Below are positions 3,563 through 10,055 of a stretch of 13,629 nucleotides of DNA, one piece after another. Positions within the stretch are counted from its first letter, which is position 1. Every line of letters begins with the position of its first letter. Made by a program: the position numbers and the translations under genes. The notes below the pieces were generated by a model, which searched no databases, was not told where the DNA came from, and saw nothing but the letters and a program-made list of their open reading frames with translations. Origin of the DNA: a bacterium (lineage in GTDB: Bacteria > JAHJDO01); the NCBI GenBank assembly GCA_030611945.1, contig JAUWOV010000050.1:1-13629 (forward strand), read 5' to 3'.

Positions 3563-4357
3563 TTATATTACCTCCAAACTTGTTTTCTTAACCCATCCGA
3601 TCTTTTTATCGGAGCGTTTTATTTTGTTCCAACCGTCTTTTGTGGAAAGAATATAGATCTTTGTTCCTTCGTAGAGAGTAAAATATGTGGTTGCTCTGTC
3701 AAATGGTCCGTATTTAGCCTCTGCCTCCTTTTTTGCAACAATTGCTTCTCTACCGAGAGAAGATACTCTTTTGTAAAACGAAAAAGAACCTGCAATTAAA
3801 AACAATATAAGAACAAACACCGAGATCAGCAAATATCTTTTAAGCCCGACAATTCTGAGAAAAATTCTCACAGTTAGAATTAAGAAAATAAGCGCGCAGA
3901 CCATACTTAGAATAACAGTCATCTCATTGAGAGTAAATTGTCCGTAGAATTTATCAACCTGTTTTTTCAGCCATGGCATTTTGGATTCTGCAACACAGTT
4001 AGTTATTAATGACTTGGCATACAGGTAATTAGCCTCCAGATCCTTATCTCTGGGAATTAGTTCCTTTGCTCTTTCATAATTTAGAACAGCCTTGCCCAGA
4101 GCGCCTTCTTTTAGATAAGAATTTGCCAGATTATAATACAGATTACCGCTTTCGTATCCTTTTTCGAGTATTTGTTCATATTCTTTAACAGCCTCATCAT
4201 ACTTTGCTTGTTTATAAAAATTATTTGCGTTATAGAACATGTGTTTTTCGCTATGAGAATTTCCTTGTTCTGCCAGCAGGATTGAACAGGACATAAAAAA
4301 AATTCCAATAATAAAAAGCAGGATATACAATAGTTTATTACACTTTAGAAGCATCAT
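3563..4357 (-). CDS. batE: BatE-like TPR and SH3-domain membrane protein
   Basis: The 264-residue protein has an N-terminal signal or anchor helix (9-29), two to three TPR units (about 40-107, with the YDEAVKEYEQIL and GKAVLNYERAKEL patterns), two membrane helices (about 145-169 and 174-194) and a C-terminal bacterial SH3-like domain (about 203-262, ending GWNKIKRSDKKIGWVKK). This order is that of BatE of the Bacteroides aerotolerance operon, thought to act in a periplasm-facing complex with BatD. The start overlaps the batD stop (ATGATG overlapping TGA), so translation is coupled. A second ATG follows immediately, so the start could be one codon later. The symbol rests on architecture and on being next to batD. 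Confidence 0.75.
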   Translation of the reverse strand: MMLLKCNKLLYILLFIIGIFFMSCSILLAEQGNSHSEKHMFYNANNFYKQAKYDEAVKEYEQILEKGYESGNLYYNLANSYLKEGALGKAVLNYERAKELIPRDKDLEANYLYAKSLITNCVAESKMPWLKKQVDKFYGQFTLNEMTVILSMVCALIFLILTVRIFLRIVGLKRYLLISVFVLILFLIAGSFSFYKRVSSLGREAIVAKKEAEAKYGPFDRATTYFTLYEGTKIYILSTKDGWNKIKRSDKKIGWVKKTSLEVI

Positions 4358-6180
4358 AGTCTTTCCTTTTCCAGAAGCCTAATGACTTCTTTGACTTTTT
4401 CAAAAAGGCTGTCTGTTTCTTTTTCGCTGCGCTCTAAAAGAGCGTATCTTGTAGCGTCGCACTTCTTAAAAATATCATCCAAAGCATTTAATATCTTCTT
4501 ATTTATTGCTTTACGCCTTAAAACTTTGTCAACAATATCCGACGTTATTCCGCCCGGAGCAATATGCAGCTTATTCCCCAGATATTCCTTTAATGTTTTT
4601 AATATGGAATCGTAAAATTCCCGAGTTCTTTTTCGCTCAAGAAGACTCTTTGCTTTTTTAATCCCCTGCTTTGCCTTTTTAAATGCGCGCAAATTCCGAG
4701 CATATCTCAGATCAGTTCTCAATTTTTCAGTTCGTTTGTGAACAATAGATAGGAATATAAATATGATTAACGGAAATAATTGAATGAGCAGAAATATTCT
4801 GTTTTTGTAAATGCATGCCTGATTTTTTATCATATTACCCGGTTCATCCTTAATATATACAATATCTCTGCCTAATACTTCCTTTTTAACATACTTTGCA
4901 GCAGATTGAGACGACTCAACTATTCTTAATCCTTTTCCCTTTTTAGATTTTGTTATTTTTATCGGAACAGGTCCTTTTGATATTGTGCGGTAGACTTTTT
5001 TTTCTGTATCGAAACAGCTGAATGTGATTTTGGGGATTTCTTGGACAGTATCCGTATCAGGCATTAATATCTGCTCAAATGTTTTTGTTCCGTATTCCTG
5101 TTTCACTTCAGGATCATAAATCTTGAAGGATTGGTTAGCCTCAAGTTTCGGACAGGTTACTGTCGCAAAATTACCTCTGCCTTTTATAACCATCTTCAGC
5201 GTGATCGGATCCCCGACATTAACTTCCTTTGGCTCAGCTTTTAAATCAAATGTAAAGTTTCCAACAGCGCCGCTAAAGTCTTCGGGCTTTCCCTCTTCAG
5301 GAAGGTCTTTGACCGTTATCGGAATTTCCTTAGACTTCAAACTCAGAGGATAAATCTCTCTCCTGCTAAAAAAGTCCCCGAACGCATCATCTCCGAAAAA
5401 ACTATCAAACGGAGAAGAACTTCTTTGTCTTTTCTTGTTAACGATAAGGTTGCATTTAATCTGCGCAGGACCTAAAACAAGTTTAGCTGTCTTTGTTCCG
5501 AAAATATTTGTTTTAAATTCTATCACCTCATATTCCCTGCCGTTTAAAACATCCCTGTATTGCGCAGGTTTGGCAAATTTATCTGTAGAGAATCCGTTAT
5601 GAGAGAATATCGGATATTCTATATCTCTTACAGCAAGTCTGCTTACATACAATTTTATTGTTAATGGGATAATTTCGTTTAAATATATATCCTGTTTTGG
5701 AACGGACATCTTCAGGAAAATATTATCGCCTAATTTAGATGCTTCTTCCGAAGAAGACCGCTGTGTGCTCTCCGATGCATTAACACTGCCCTCTACAACC
5801 TCAACTGTTATCTGCTTTGAAGTATAGGTTTTCTTCTTGTATTCTAAAGACAAGGGTCCAATCTTGAATTTCCCGACCCGCATAGGAATAAGCGTATATA
5901 TATGGGTTATTGAACTGGAAATCTTTCCGTTGACCATTGACACTCTTGTTGAGGGCCCCTGATAACGGGATTGAAATCCATCTATCTTAGGAAGCTGCGG
6001 CGCAGGCATACGCTGAGTGCCGTAAAAAGTAAGATTGAGATTTATAGCGCTGCCCAAAGAAACCTTGTTCCTATCAACAGAAGCCTGAAATTTTATATCA
6101 GCTGCAAATGCTGTTCCTGAAAAAACAAAAGACAAGATAACTATACTAAAAATCTTCCTAATTAATTTAGAATTTCCCAT
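4354..6180 (-). CDS. batD: BatD family protein (aerotolerance operon)
   Basis: A 608-residue protein with a clear signal peptide (1-26, cleavage after AFA), a long beta-rich periplasmic part made of repeated immunoglobulin-like modules (FQASVDRNKVSLGSAINLNL, and later FDLKAEPKEVNVGDPITLKM), one membrane helix at about 460-481, and a basic, helical cytoplasmic tail of about 125 residues. This is the BatD (PF13584) layout. Bat proteins were named for a role in oxygen tolerance in Bacteroides; their biochemistry is unsettled. I place the start at the ATG at 6180, which overlaps the batC stop as TGATG. An in-frame TTG two codons upstream is possible but less likely. It is followed by batE with a 4-bp overlap. 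Confidence 0.85.
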   Translation of the reverse strand: MGNSKLIRKIFSIVILSFVFSGTAFAADIKFQASVDRNKVSLGSAINLNLTFYGTQRMPAPQLPKIDGFQSRYQGPSTRVSMVNGKISSSITHIYTLIPMRVGKFKIGPLSLEYKKKTYTSKQITVEVVEGSVNASESTQRSSSEEASKLGDNIFLKMSVPKQDIYLNEIIPLTIKLYVSRLAVRDIEYPIFSHNGFSTDKFAKPAQYRDVLNGREYEVIEFKTNIFGTKTAKLVLGPAQIKCNLIVNKKRQRSSSPFDSFFGDDAFGDFFSRREIYPLSLKSKEIPITVKDLPEEGKPEDFSGAVGNFTFDLKAEPKEVNVGDPITLKMVIKGRGNFATVTCPKLEANQSFKIYDPEVKQEYGTKTFEQILMPDTDTVQEIPKITFSCFDTEKKVYRTISKGPVPIKITKSKKGKGLRIVESSQSAAKYVKKEVLGRDIVYIKDEPGNMIKNQACIYKNRIFLLIQLFPLIIFIFLSIVHKRTEKLRTDLRYARNLRAFKKAKQGIKKAKSLLERKRTREFYDSILKTLKEYLGNKLHIAPGGITSDIVDKVLRRKAINKKILNALDDIFKKCDATRYALLERSEKETDSLFEKVKEVIRLLEKERL

Positions 6181-6950
6181 CACCAATTCTTTAATACATC
6201 GGAATAATAACCCTGCTGCTTCATTTTTTTGAGCTTCTCCTTTGATTCTTCTTCATGCTTATATCCTTCTAAAAGCATCTTTGCTTCCTGCTCAGACATT
6301 TCCTTAGGCTTTTCAGCCTTTTGTTTTTTAGCTTCATTGCCCTGTTTCTGTTCTTTTTTGCCGAAATCTTTCTGCTGCTCTTTTCCCGTTTCCCTTTTTC
6401 CTTCTTTCTTCTTTTTGTCTTGTTTCTGTTTCTGCTGTTTTTTCTGTTTATCCAGTAAAACCTTCAGCTTTTTCTCAACAAATTCGTGATTGAATTTAGC
6501 GTCCTTATTCTTTCCATCCAATTCTATCACTCTCTTATAATAGTCAAGCGAGTCCCTTAATAAACTTATTGCAGAAGACAAATCTGTATTTTCTTTAAGG
6601 ACCGCCTGTTTATATTTACTGTTTCCAATATTGTAATTTGTCTTTGATTCAAGTTTCCCGTCCTCTGATATTAATGCTTTTGTAAAAGAGCCAAGCGCTT
6701 TTTCTTAATCCCCTTTTTTATACTGAGCTGCTCCTATATCAAAATTTATAATTGCAGAATTCGGAGATTTTGTTAATGCCTTATTGTATTCCATTAATGC
6801 ATCGTCGTATTTTTTGTTTTCATACAACTTATTGGCATTTTTTACTAAACCTGCACTGCTCTCTGCAAAGACGGAACAAGTGAACAGTGATAGGTAAAGA
6901 GTGATGAGTAATGAGTAAATAGTGATAAGCTTTGAGTTTTTTATCTTCAT
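6180..6950 (-). pseudogene. batC: BatC-like TPR protein interrupted by an in-frame TAA
   Basis: One reading frame of 256 codons runs from the ATG at 6950 to the TGA at 6180, broken only by TAA at 6707-6705 (codon 82). The halves belong together: YKKGD before the stop and EKALGSFTKAL after it form one TPR, where a tyrosine is typical at the stop position. The layout is a signal peptide (1-29), TPRs (about 36-165), then a long K/Q/E-rich tail ending in LKNW, much like other BatC proteins. A single base change (TAT or TAC to TAA) or a sequencing error would explain it. Restart at TTG 6581 would lack a signal peptide. The gene overlaps batD by one base and its hydrophobic core is encoded by a 7-bp repeat array. 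Confidence 0.75.
6879..6927. repeat. Heptanucleotide tandem array inside batC signal sequence
   Basis: Seven contiguous degenerate 7-bp units read on the plus strand as AGTGAAC, AGTGATA, GGTAAAG, AGTGATG, AGTAATG, AGTAAAT and AGTGATA. On the coding (minus) strand the array encodes residues 9-24 of the batC product. Because 7 is not a multiple of 3, the protein repeats every 7 residues (LITIYSL, then LITLYLS). The array forms the hydrophobic core of the signal peptide. Confidence 0.8.
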
Positions 6951-6962
6951 CTAAAATTTTCT

Positions 6963-7103
6963 TCAGATTTCCAAACGCACCTTAAAAAATCTGTTATTAA
7001 TTATTTCCATCTCACCTGATTCTATTCTGCTTTCAAACCTTTTTTTATCCATTTCCATTAAAGCGTCTCTCTCCTGAACATTTCTAGTCCTGTTTCTGGG
7101 CAT
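6963..7103 (-). CDS. Orphan 46-residue ORF, possible tail of a lost gene
   Basis: An unrecognised charged peptide starts MPRNRTRNVQERDALM and ends NNRFFKVRLEI. It stops 12 bp before the batC start. The same frame is open further upstream through the dispersed repeat at 7153-7217 without a stop, and the residues just before the ATG (FSLKAKLGYKR) look equally protein-like. The ORF may therefore be the 3' remnant of a longer gene whose front was replaced by the repeat. The ribosome site before this ATG is weak. I recognise no domain and assign no function. Confidence 0.35.
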   Translation of the reverse strand: MPRNRTRNVQERDALMEMDKKRFESRIESGEMEIINNRFFKVRLEI

Positions 7104-7152
7104 TCTCTTATATCCAAGTTTAGCCTTTAAGGAGAAAATTTTTGCAAATACT

Positions 7153-7232: not shown

Positions 7233-7958
7233 TCATACCTGATTGCATTTTATTAAATTCATCATATCCTTCACAGCTCTTTCCAGCCCTACAAATACAG
7301 CGCGAGATATAATTGAATGTCCGATATTCAGTTCTTCTATTTCCTTGATGTCGGCTATTTTCTTAGCGTTGAAATATGTTAATCCATGTCCTGCATGCAC
7401 GGTAAGTCCATGTTTTCTGGCATAATCTGTCGCATCCACAATCTTCTTGAATTCGTCTTCCATAGCTGACTGATTGGCCGCATTTGCATAACTCCCCGTA
7501 TGCAGTTCAATCGCATCTGAGTTGACTTCCAAAGAAGCCTCTATCTGGGATATTTCAGGATCTATGAACAAATTCACAATAATATCCTTATCCTTGAAAC
7601 GCTGAATTGTTTTCTTTAATTCATTTCTTTTTAAAACTACATCCAATCCGCCTTCTGTTGTAACTTCTTCTCTTTTTTCGGGAACCAAGCTTACCTGATC
7701 AGGTCCAAGTTTCAGAGCAATATCAACAATTTCGGCTGCAATTGACATTTCAAGATTGAATCTTATATTTACGATTTCTTTTATCAGCCTTACGTCTCTA
7801 TCGTTAATATGTCTTCTATCTTCCCTTAAATGGGAAACAATGCTGTCAGCGCCGGCAATTTCACATAAATGAACAGCTCTTACAGGGTCAGGTTCAAAGG
7901 TTTTTCTAGCCTGTCTGACCGTTGCAATATGGTCTATATTTACACCTAATTTTGACAT
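7233..7958 (-). CDS. pdxJ: Pyridoxine 5'-phosphate synthase
   Basis: PdxJ condenses 1-deoxy-D-xylulose 5-phosphate with 3-amino-2-oxopropyl phosphate to make pyridoxine 5'-phosphate, the ring-closing step of the DXP-dependent vitamin B6 route, in the cytoplasm. The 241 residues match the family length. Visible signatures are GVNIDHIATVRQAR (5-18), SHLREDRRHI (42-51, catalytic H43), NLEMS (68-72, E70), ELHTGSYA (151-158) and HAGHGLTY (188-195, H191), all at positions close to the E. coli enzyme. The ATG has a good AAGGAG site eight bases upstream. It follows ybbR by 14 bp and ends the run. The acpS gene that often follows pdxJ is not here; a dispersed repeat is. Confidence 0.95.
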   Translation of the reverse strand: MSKLGVNIDHIATVRQARKTFEPDPVRAVHLCEIAGADSIVSHLREDRRHINDRDVRLIKEIVNIRFNLEMSIAAEIVDIALKLGPDQVSLVPEKREEVTTEGGLDVVLKRNELKKTIQRFKDKDIIVNLFIDPEISQIEASLEVNSDAIELHTGSYANAANQSAMEDEFKKIVDATDYARKHGLTVHAGHGLTYFNAKKIADIKEIEELNIGHSIISRAVFVGLERAVKDMMNLIKCNQV

Positions 7959-9165: not shown

Positions 9166-10013
9166 TAATTACCCTTTATAGCTTTTATCATATCAATAAC
9201 TCTTCGTGTCTGTACAACATCATGAACACGAATAATATTTACGTCCTTCAAAGCCGCATATGCCACTGTGGCTAATGTACCTTCAAGCCGCTCCTTAACA
9301 TCTAAATTAAGCGCATTTCCTATAAACGATTTCCTTGACGGTCCTAAAACAACTGGTTTTCCCAGTATCTTAAACTCATTAATTCTATTAATAATCTTCA
9401 AATTATCTTCTGTAGTCTTGCCAAACCCAATTCCTGGATCCACTAGAATGTTATCTTCTCTTATTCCAACGTCCTGTGCCAGAGCTATACTATTCTTTAA
9501 TTCCTCTATAATATCTGAGACGACCGATCTGTATTTAATATCCTTTTGCATAGTCTGCGGATTTTCTCTCATATGCATAAGAATAATAGGGACATCATAA
9601 TGTGCGACAACTTTACCAAGTTCCGCGTTCTCTTTCAATCCTCCTACATTATTTACCATACAAGCGCCTGCGTCCAGAGCTCTCTTCGCAACTTCTGTTT
9701 TTCTTGTATCAATGGAAACAGGTATATTAAATTTTTTAACTATCTCCCTTATCAATGAAACAACTCGGGCGCTTTCCTCTTTTTCTGTAACTAGTTCTGC
9801 CCCCGGACGCGTTGACTCACCTCCTATATCTATAATATCCGCCCCCTGTGCAATCATCTCATCAACACGATTTATTGCCTTCTGATGTGTATTATACAAT
9901 CCTCCATCAGAAAAAGAATCTGGGGTTACATTTAATATGCCCATTAACGCTGGCTTAGTTGCCAAATCTATTGTGTACTCACCGCATTTTAATATAAAAT
10001 TATTAATTTTCAA
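9165..10013 (-). CDS. folP: Dihydropteroate synthase
   Basis: FolP condenses 6-hydroxymethyl-dihydropterin diphosphate with p-aminobenzoate to dihydropteroate in folate synthesis. The TIM-barrel signatures are all present: MGILNVTPDSFSDGG (24-38), DIGGESTRPGA (62-72), SIDTRK (100-105), NNVGG (121-125), DPGIGFGKT (192-200), GPSRKSF (224-230) and RVHDV (262-266). Length (282) is normal. The start is uncertain: TTG at 10013 gives the right N-terminal length but has no convincing ribosome site and sits within a 7-bp-periodic AATT-rich array. The next ATG (residue 24) would remove the first strand. cdaA overlaps its stop by one base. I see no good promoter in the 440 bp upstream. Confidence 0.95.
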   Translation of the reverse strand: MKINNFILKCGEYTIDLATKPALMGILNVTPDSFSDGGLYNTHQKAINRVDEMIAQGADIIDIGGESTRPGAELVTEKEESARVVSLIREIVKKFNIPVSIDTRKTEVAKRALDAGACMVNNVGGLKENAELGKVVAHYDVPIILMHMRENPQTMQKDIKYRSVVSDIIEELKNSIALAQDVGIREDNILVDPGIGFGKTTEDNLKIINRINEFKILGKPVVLGPSRKSFIGNALNLDVKERLEGTLATVAYAALKDVNIIRVHDVVQTRRVIDMIKAIKGN

Positions 10014-10055
10014 TTTCTAATTTCCAATCAATTACTAATTTCAAAATTGCTAATT
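10005..10055. repeat. AATT-rich heptanucleotide-like array at the folP start
   Basis: AATT motifs recur at 10005, 10012, 10019, 10030, 10037, 10045 and 10052. Consecutive spacings are mostly 7 bp, and the clearest units are AATTTTC, AATTTCT and AATTTCC. It resembles a decayed 7-bp tandem repeat. The folP start codon (TTG, 10013-10011) is inside it. Confidence 0.6.

Follow-up and report, generated by a model that had tools for sequence, protein, structure and literature searches.

Signal peptides are nearly free of fixed sequence, and the way in which a new one comes into being is rarely visible. The window analysed here, which is the whole stretch of 13,629 nucleotides of a bacterial contig, raises the question of whether the N-terminus of its batC gene records an event of this kind. 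The raw material still appears to be visible in batC, as a tandem repeat that reads as one peptide in any frame, together with substitutions that raised the hydrophobicity of that peptide.

The BatC N-terminus and its genetic neighbourhood

The array, the gene that contains it and the neighbouring genes of the window are as follows.

6864 to 6950, minus strand: predicted signal peptide of BatC, 29 codons (MKIKNSKLITIYSLLITLYLSLFTCSVFA), with a charged start, a hydrophobic stretch and an A-x-A-like end, cleavage being predicted after VFA
6879 to 6927, plus strand: seven degenerate heptamers with the consensus AGTRATG (ATYACTC on the coding strand), which make up batC codons 8 to 24
6928 to 6941, plus strand: two more worn, putative units (AAAAACT and CAAAGCT in the register of the coding strand), perhaps the upstream edge of the batC array
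6705 to 6950, minus strand: first open part of batC, 81 amino acids, comprising the signal peptide and the first TPR (TPR_11, matched by residues 40 to 80, E 1.7e-9), and stopping at an in-frame TAA
6180 to 6704, minus strand: batC continued in the same frame past the TAA for 174 codons, the C-terminal part being rich in K and Q
4354 to 6186, minus strand: batD, the downstream gene in the same operon (PF13584, E 5.1e-30)
3563 to 4357, minus strand: batE-like gene (signal peptide plus TPR), next to batD
7233 to 7958, minus strand: pdxJ, the upstream neighbour of batC, found in all four congeners

The minus-strand ORF that begins at 6950 and carries the array reads MKIKNSKLITIYSLLITLYLSLFTCSVFAESSAGLV, and its identification as BatC draws on the combination of a signal peptide with a TPR in a gene that adjoins batD and a batE-like gene. 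Judged by inspection and by the alignment of homologues, the N-terminus has the layout of a Sec signal peptide, with a positive n-region (MKIKNSK), a hydrophobic core (LITIYSLLITLYLSLFT) and a cleavage region (CSVFA^ES) whose A-x-A-like site precedes the mature domain, and it presumably functions as one. Distant BatC homologues can be aligned with this protein over the mature part; their signal peptides end at the same position, before the conserved TPR, and are ordinary, non-repetitive and different in sequence.

No batC orthologs were found in the four congeneric genomes (G001 to G004), and batC and batD are both missing from them, with the exception of a weak match to the C-terminal part of BatD in G003 (L153). 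The Bat operon may be decaying in the genome examined here, or may have been gained recently by it. The in-frame nonsense codon of batC (TAA at 6705 to 6707) is codon 82 and lies 171 bp past the array, and given this codon, full-length BatC may no longer be made. A first-pass annotation of the window had tied the nonsense codon to the array as a sign of decay, a connection that the reading frame does not bear out: the frame is kept through the array to codon 82, so that slippage in the array did not make the TAA. A frame-shift origin of the nonsense codon is likewise rejected, since the frame is the same before and after it.

Just upstream of batC, at 6971 to 7150 on the minus strand, some 60 codons are open (KIFSLKAKLGYKRMPRNRTRNVQERDALMEMDKKRFESRIESGEMEIINNRFFKVRLEI) and resemble the 3' end of a gene that has otherwise disappeared.

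Composition of the heptanucleotide array

On the plus strand, positions 6879 to 6927 read AGTGAAC AGTGATA GGTAAAG AGTGATG AGTAATG AGTAAAT AGTGATA. A period-7 consensus is fitted by 38 of these 49 bases, and all remaining periods between 3 and 13 fit only 21 to 28. Lag identities within the array are 0.64 (lag 7), 0.69 (lag 14) and 0.75 (lag 21), and the program Tandem Repeats Finder (TRF) calls the array at each of the periods 7, 14 and 21. The first-pass annotation had described seven contiguous degenerate heptamers inside batC that supply almost all of the hydrophobic core of a signal peptide, and this description holds in both respects: the sequence is as it was described, with a periodicity that exceeds that of synonymous recodings (see below), and the array, at codons 8 to 24 of MKIKNSKLITIYSLLITLYLSLFTCSVFA^ES, covers nearly the whole hydrophobic core of the predicted 29-residue signal peptide.

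A second period-7 array, of an AATTTCC type, is located at 9998 to 10028 of the window, where it overlaps the start of a folP-like gene.

Heptamer arrays in related genomes

With a strict detector (at least five units, at least 82% lag identity, low-complexity sequence removed), 1.66 Mb of sequence from four genomes of the genus, including the genome of the window (G000), yielded 19 period-7 arrays and no array at periods 6, 8, 9 or 10; the batC array itself is so degenerate that this detector misses it. Within the genus, period 7 stands apart from the neighbouring periods. Most of the strict arrays (17 of 19) overlap ORFs, with eight of them in the first 50 codons (231 kb) and seven in ORF interiors (1,257 kb), a distribution for which the binomial P is 0.0008, or 0.006 after the removal of obvious orthologs. 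This N-terminal excess is provisional, coming from a sample in which many stretches of G002 to G004 were chosen via earlier contig hits and ORF starts were set at the leftmost possible codon; in the stretches of G000, most of which follow the order of the contigs, a single one of the six strict arrays is N-terminal.

Perfect arrays of the batC heptamer family exist in the congeners G003 and G004. A radical-SAM/B12 gene has ACTCATC four times in G004 (L227), as opposed to ACTCAAAACT in G003 and ACTCACCACT in G002 (L228, L229), and the corresponding protein segments are AAAAAAACTCATCACTCATCACTCATCACTCATCACTAAATTAGAA in G004, AAAAAACTCAAAACTAAATTAGAA in G003 and AAAAACTCACCACTGAACTGGAA in G002. 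Relative to the other two genomes, the G004 gene has undergone a clean in-frame gain of 21 bp, which amounts to three units of the batC type. At other loci the unit itself differs between genomes: a loop of HisH is written with GACCATA-type units in G000 and with AAAATTC/AAAACTC-type units in G003 (L224, L225), and the junction between a queD-like gene and a fumarase gene (L214 to L217) has AGTGATG units in G003, GGATAAA units in G000 and, in G002 and G004, nothing beyond worn units. In G003, the hisH match (L225) has one TGA inside a frame that is open otherwise.

Several of the heptamer arrays are in predicted leaders of exported proteins. In G004 and G002, prepilin leaders before the FTLIE motif are built of heptamers, as is the predicted signal peptide of a G002 protein (...FSWTQTD) whose relative in G000 starts differently; units of a GGTCTAT type make up a predicted signal peptide of G002. 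The predicted signal peptide of an amidase is MIKRVFIFAALILSASCSAYC in G003 and MTKIQMTKTMFRILKIRILDLFRISIFGFRIFVFSALILSASYSAYC in G000, and the extra part of the G000 version, an insert that G003 lacks, is a dispersed element of ~140 bp bordered by heptamer stretches.

Copies of this ~140-bp element are seen at 1096 to 1236 of L159 (G000:C1) and in L213, L175, L206, L193, L186 and L181; there are many in G002 and G004, and none at the amidase start of G003 (L217). The ends of the element, CGAAGCACGAAATACGAAAC and TTTCGATATTCGGATTTCGG, are roughly inverted, it reads MTKIQMTKTMFRILKIRIL..., and amidase, NlpC/P60 and GspJ-like ORFs begin with it.

Two coding arrays are common to G002 and G004, one at the N-terminus of a RarA-like ATPase and the other in an ORF of 713/716 amino acids, and both have equal length in the two genomes, with substitutions at most. 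The array of the RarA-like protein, located at 15973 to 16016 of L241 (G004) and at 5250 to 5293 of L295 (G002), consists of AAAACTC units (KLKTQNSK) that closely resemble the AAGACTC units and RLKTQDS heptads of neuO, a gene discussed below. Gaps between the congeneric genomes are mainly of 1 to 3 bp, and lengths of 7, 14 or 21 are not generally over-represented among them, so that frequent current turnover of units is unsupported and the growth of heptamer arrays in the genus is rare.

Distribution in other phyla and relation to known repeats

Exact AGTRATG arrays account for at least 116 stretches among the matches listed for species-representative genomes, and these matches come from Cyanobacteria, Bacteroidota, Chloroflexota, Nitrospirota, Acidobacteriota, Deltaproteobacteria and others. 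Three exact AGTRATG units were found in 6 of 385 genomes of a mixed sample; this genus, represented by five genomes, accounts for two of the six. The array-bearing loci of other phyla contain 137 further period-7 arrays, of other heptamer families, in 828 kb, versus 15 arrays for periods 5, 6, 8, 9, 10 and 11 together, in loci that were fetched for holding a heptamer array, so that the counts describe the surroundings of such arrays and not genomes at large. In these same loci, 200 of 252 arrays are outside ORFs, some of them directly 5' of start codons. The reversed-pattern control is not an independent one, (GTAATGA)n being a rotation of (AGTAATG)n, and the matches of this control in G320 are therefore not noise. 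A start codon followed by an array of the batC family was seen in 1 of the 385 genomes, and the use of a heptamer array in a signal peptide is unusual.

With exact 7-bp units above chance, and with its family also represented in the genus and in distant phyla, the batC array belongs to a class of dispersed heptamer arrays that is already known. TAACTGA heptamers have been described as direct repeats in Beggiatoaceae, Cyanobacteria and Bacteroidetes (MacGregor 2015, PMC4679880). They are similar to the batC family in forming short tandem 7-bp arrays over distant phyla, in having stops in all frames of one strand and a single heptapeptide on the other (LSVISYQ, versus LLITHYS for the batC family) and in a few cases that lie, like batC, inside ORFs near protein ends. 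They differ in their unit and in being mostly intergenic, just 5' of start codons; a signal-peptide role is not mentioned in the sections drawn on here, whereas the batC array is the core of a predicted export signal. The batC array is not a TAACTGA repeat proper, given its AGTRATG unit and its position inside an ORF, and is kin to those repeats in class only. The heptameric SSRs of Xanthomonas and Nostoc (PMC4692102) and the heptanucleotide elements of Geobacter metallireducens (PMC2700814) resemble it in that they are period-7 repeats, over-represented in bacterial genomes, dispersed and in some instances intragenic, but they have G-rich units, a proposed quadruplex or regulatory role and, in PMC4692102, mostly intergenic positions. 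Rickettsia palindromic elements (RPE; reviewed in PMC10969869) are likewise repeated DNA in frame within ordinary proteins; they are, however, palindromic elements of ~150 bp, whereas batC has a simple tandem array, and it is the ~140-bp element of the present genus that is more RPE-like. A literature search on heptanucleotide repeats in signal peptides yielded, by title and abstract, no paper on signal peptides built from repeats. What is unusual here is the array as the core of a signal peptide, with parallel cases in the genus.

Alternative explanations for the array

Signal peptides are low in complexity, and a hydrophobic, A+T-rich one that draws on Leu, Ile, Thr and Ser codons might look periodic by accident; the BatC protein itself does lift the expected period-7 score, to a mean of 30.4 of 49. 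When codons 8 to 24 were recoded synonymously, with the exact BatC protein kept and local codon usage applied, the expected score was 30.4 +/- 2.1 and the observed score of 38 had a P of 3.8e-4 (0.038% of trials), while the lag score gave a P of 3e-5 (0.003% of trials); for shuffled residues and for a generic signal-peptide composition, the P values of the period-7 score were 1e-5 and < 1e-5. A score of 38 was reached in only 6 of 215,497 overlapping 49-bp windows of sequence from the same genome, and batC ranks first in 5'-end period-7 score among 684 ORFs sampled from 653 kb of that genome. These results, and the presence of the family of the batC unit as perfect arrays in congeners, make an accidental origin of the pattern very improbable. 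The array might instead be a 5' leader or an intergenic repeat that only looks coding, either with translation from a downstream start or in a decaying pseudogene whose frame is open as a by-product. It would then be like the arrays of other phyla, which are mostly outside ORFs and sometimes directly before start codons, and the TAA at codon 82 would agree with decay. However, no ATG exists between the array and the TPR part, and the only start-like codon there, a TTG at codon 42, is past the predicted cleavage site; through the cleavage-like VFA-ES the array runs straight into the conserved mature part of BatC, the homologues have their signal peptide at exactly that place, and 174 codons are open beyond the TAA. 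On balance, we consider this reading unlikely.

The dispersed element at the amidase start, with its many copies in G000, G002 and G004, suggests that the array might have arrived within some longer element of that kind. A comparison of the 5' region of batC (6841 to 7010) with 660 kb of sequence from its own genome and with congener sequence, however, gave no long match, only the heptamers and short A+T-rich words, which renders such an arrival very improbable. Little more can be said for the suggestion of the first-pass annotation that the array is an on/off contingency locus, in which units gained or lost by slippage would toggle batC. The established case of such a switch is neuO of E. coli K1, whose poly-psi VNTR has 2 to 93 copies of AAGACTC units that encode RLKTQDS heptads (PMC3046976, PMC13001214). 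The two genes are alike in having a heptanucleotide repeat at the 5' coding end, with three units per seven residues and heptads retained in the protein; their units share ACTC, and in batC, too, the reading frame depends on the number of units modulo 3. But the neuO repeat consists of a single unit whose copy number varies between strains, with a proven on/off effect and no role in an export signal (PMC3046976, PMC13001214), whereas no adjacent pair of batC units is identical and the longest exact lag-7 run is 8 bases, which is not the pure, fast-slipping tandem that a neuO-like locus would have. In addition, the batC array is in frame, the coding arrays that G002 and G004 have in common are of equal length, and batC is not an obvious surface-variation gene. 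A contingency function is thus quite improbable.

Origin of the array and its probable recruitment as an export signal

The heptamer array at 6879 to 6927 is real; it belongs to a repeat class already known and supplies the core of the predicted signal peptide, and we think it probable that an array of this widespread class grew by slippage and was exapted for that role in BatC. A heptanucleotide array would have arisen at or in the 5' end of batC, its growth having most likely occurred by slipped-strand duplication from a short seed with 7-bp spacing, and would then have been recruited as the hydrophobic core of the signal peptide. Later substitutions (both His codons to Ile or Leu, and one Ser to Leu) might have improved the export signal; the normal cleavage region and the mature part of BatC would have been kept. 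Since 3 does not divide 7, the stop-free strand of such an array reads LLITHYS in all three frames, and because the peptide is the same in any frame, an array in the open orientation is a ready-made, moderately hydrophobic segment.

The batC array departs from the family consensus at 7 of 48 positions, with outcomes that include His to Ile, His to Leu and Ser to Leu. If the consensus is assumed as the ancestral array, the mean hydropathy has gone from 0.71 to 1.81 in the batC copy, a value that random drift with an equal number of substitutions and no stops reaches with a P of 0.0014 (0.0022 with A+T bias). Among 368 overlapping 16-residue windows from arrays elsewhere, 11 are equally hydrophobic, the top ones all coming from one locus. 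Provided that the array started from the consensus, such values fit selection that improved the core once the array existed. The proposal of the first-pass annotation that the array was co-opted as, or grew within, a secretion signal can therefore be retained in part: a real array of the heptamer class supplies the core, and congeners have in-frame heptamer growth elsewhere as well as arrays in other signal peptides and in prepilin leaders, but the contingency switch and the link to the nonsense codon, which had accompanied the proposal, are not supported.

In this genus, a period-7 process of replication or repair might seed arrays in genes, with survivors of unrelated families repeatedly and independently becoming signal-peptide cores or prepilin leaders, which would make such arrays a recurrent natural origin of secretion signals; we offer this broader scheme tentatively and consider it doubtful at present. 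Should an unbiased count bear out the genus-wide pattern, new N-terminal leaders and loop insertions could be traced to heptamer arrays as their source, and the recurrence of such arrays in distant phyla would become a measurable evolutionary question.

The BatE-like protein of an unrelated genome (L018, G047:C71) has the N-terminus VIASEAKQS...LLRRLAMTLILVFSSSPLFA, which has the look of another dispersed repeat in the role of a signal peptide.
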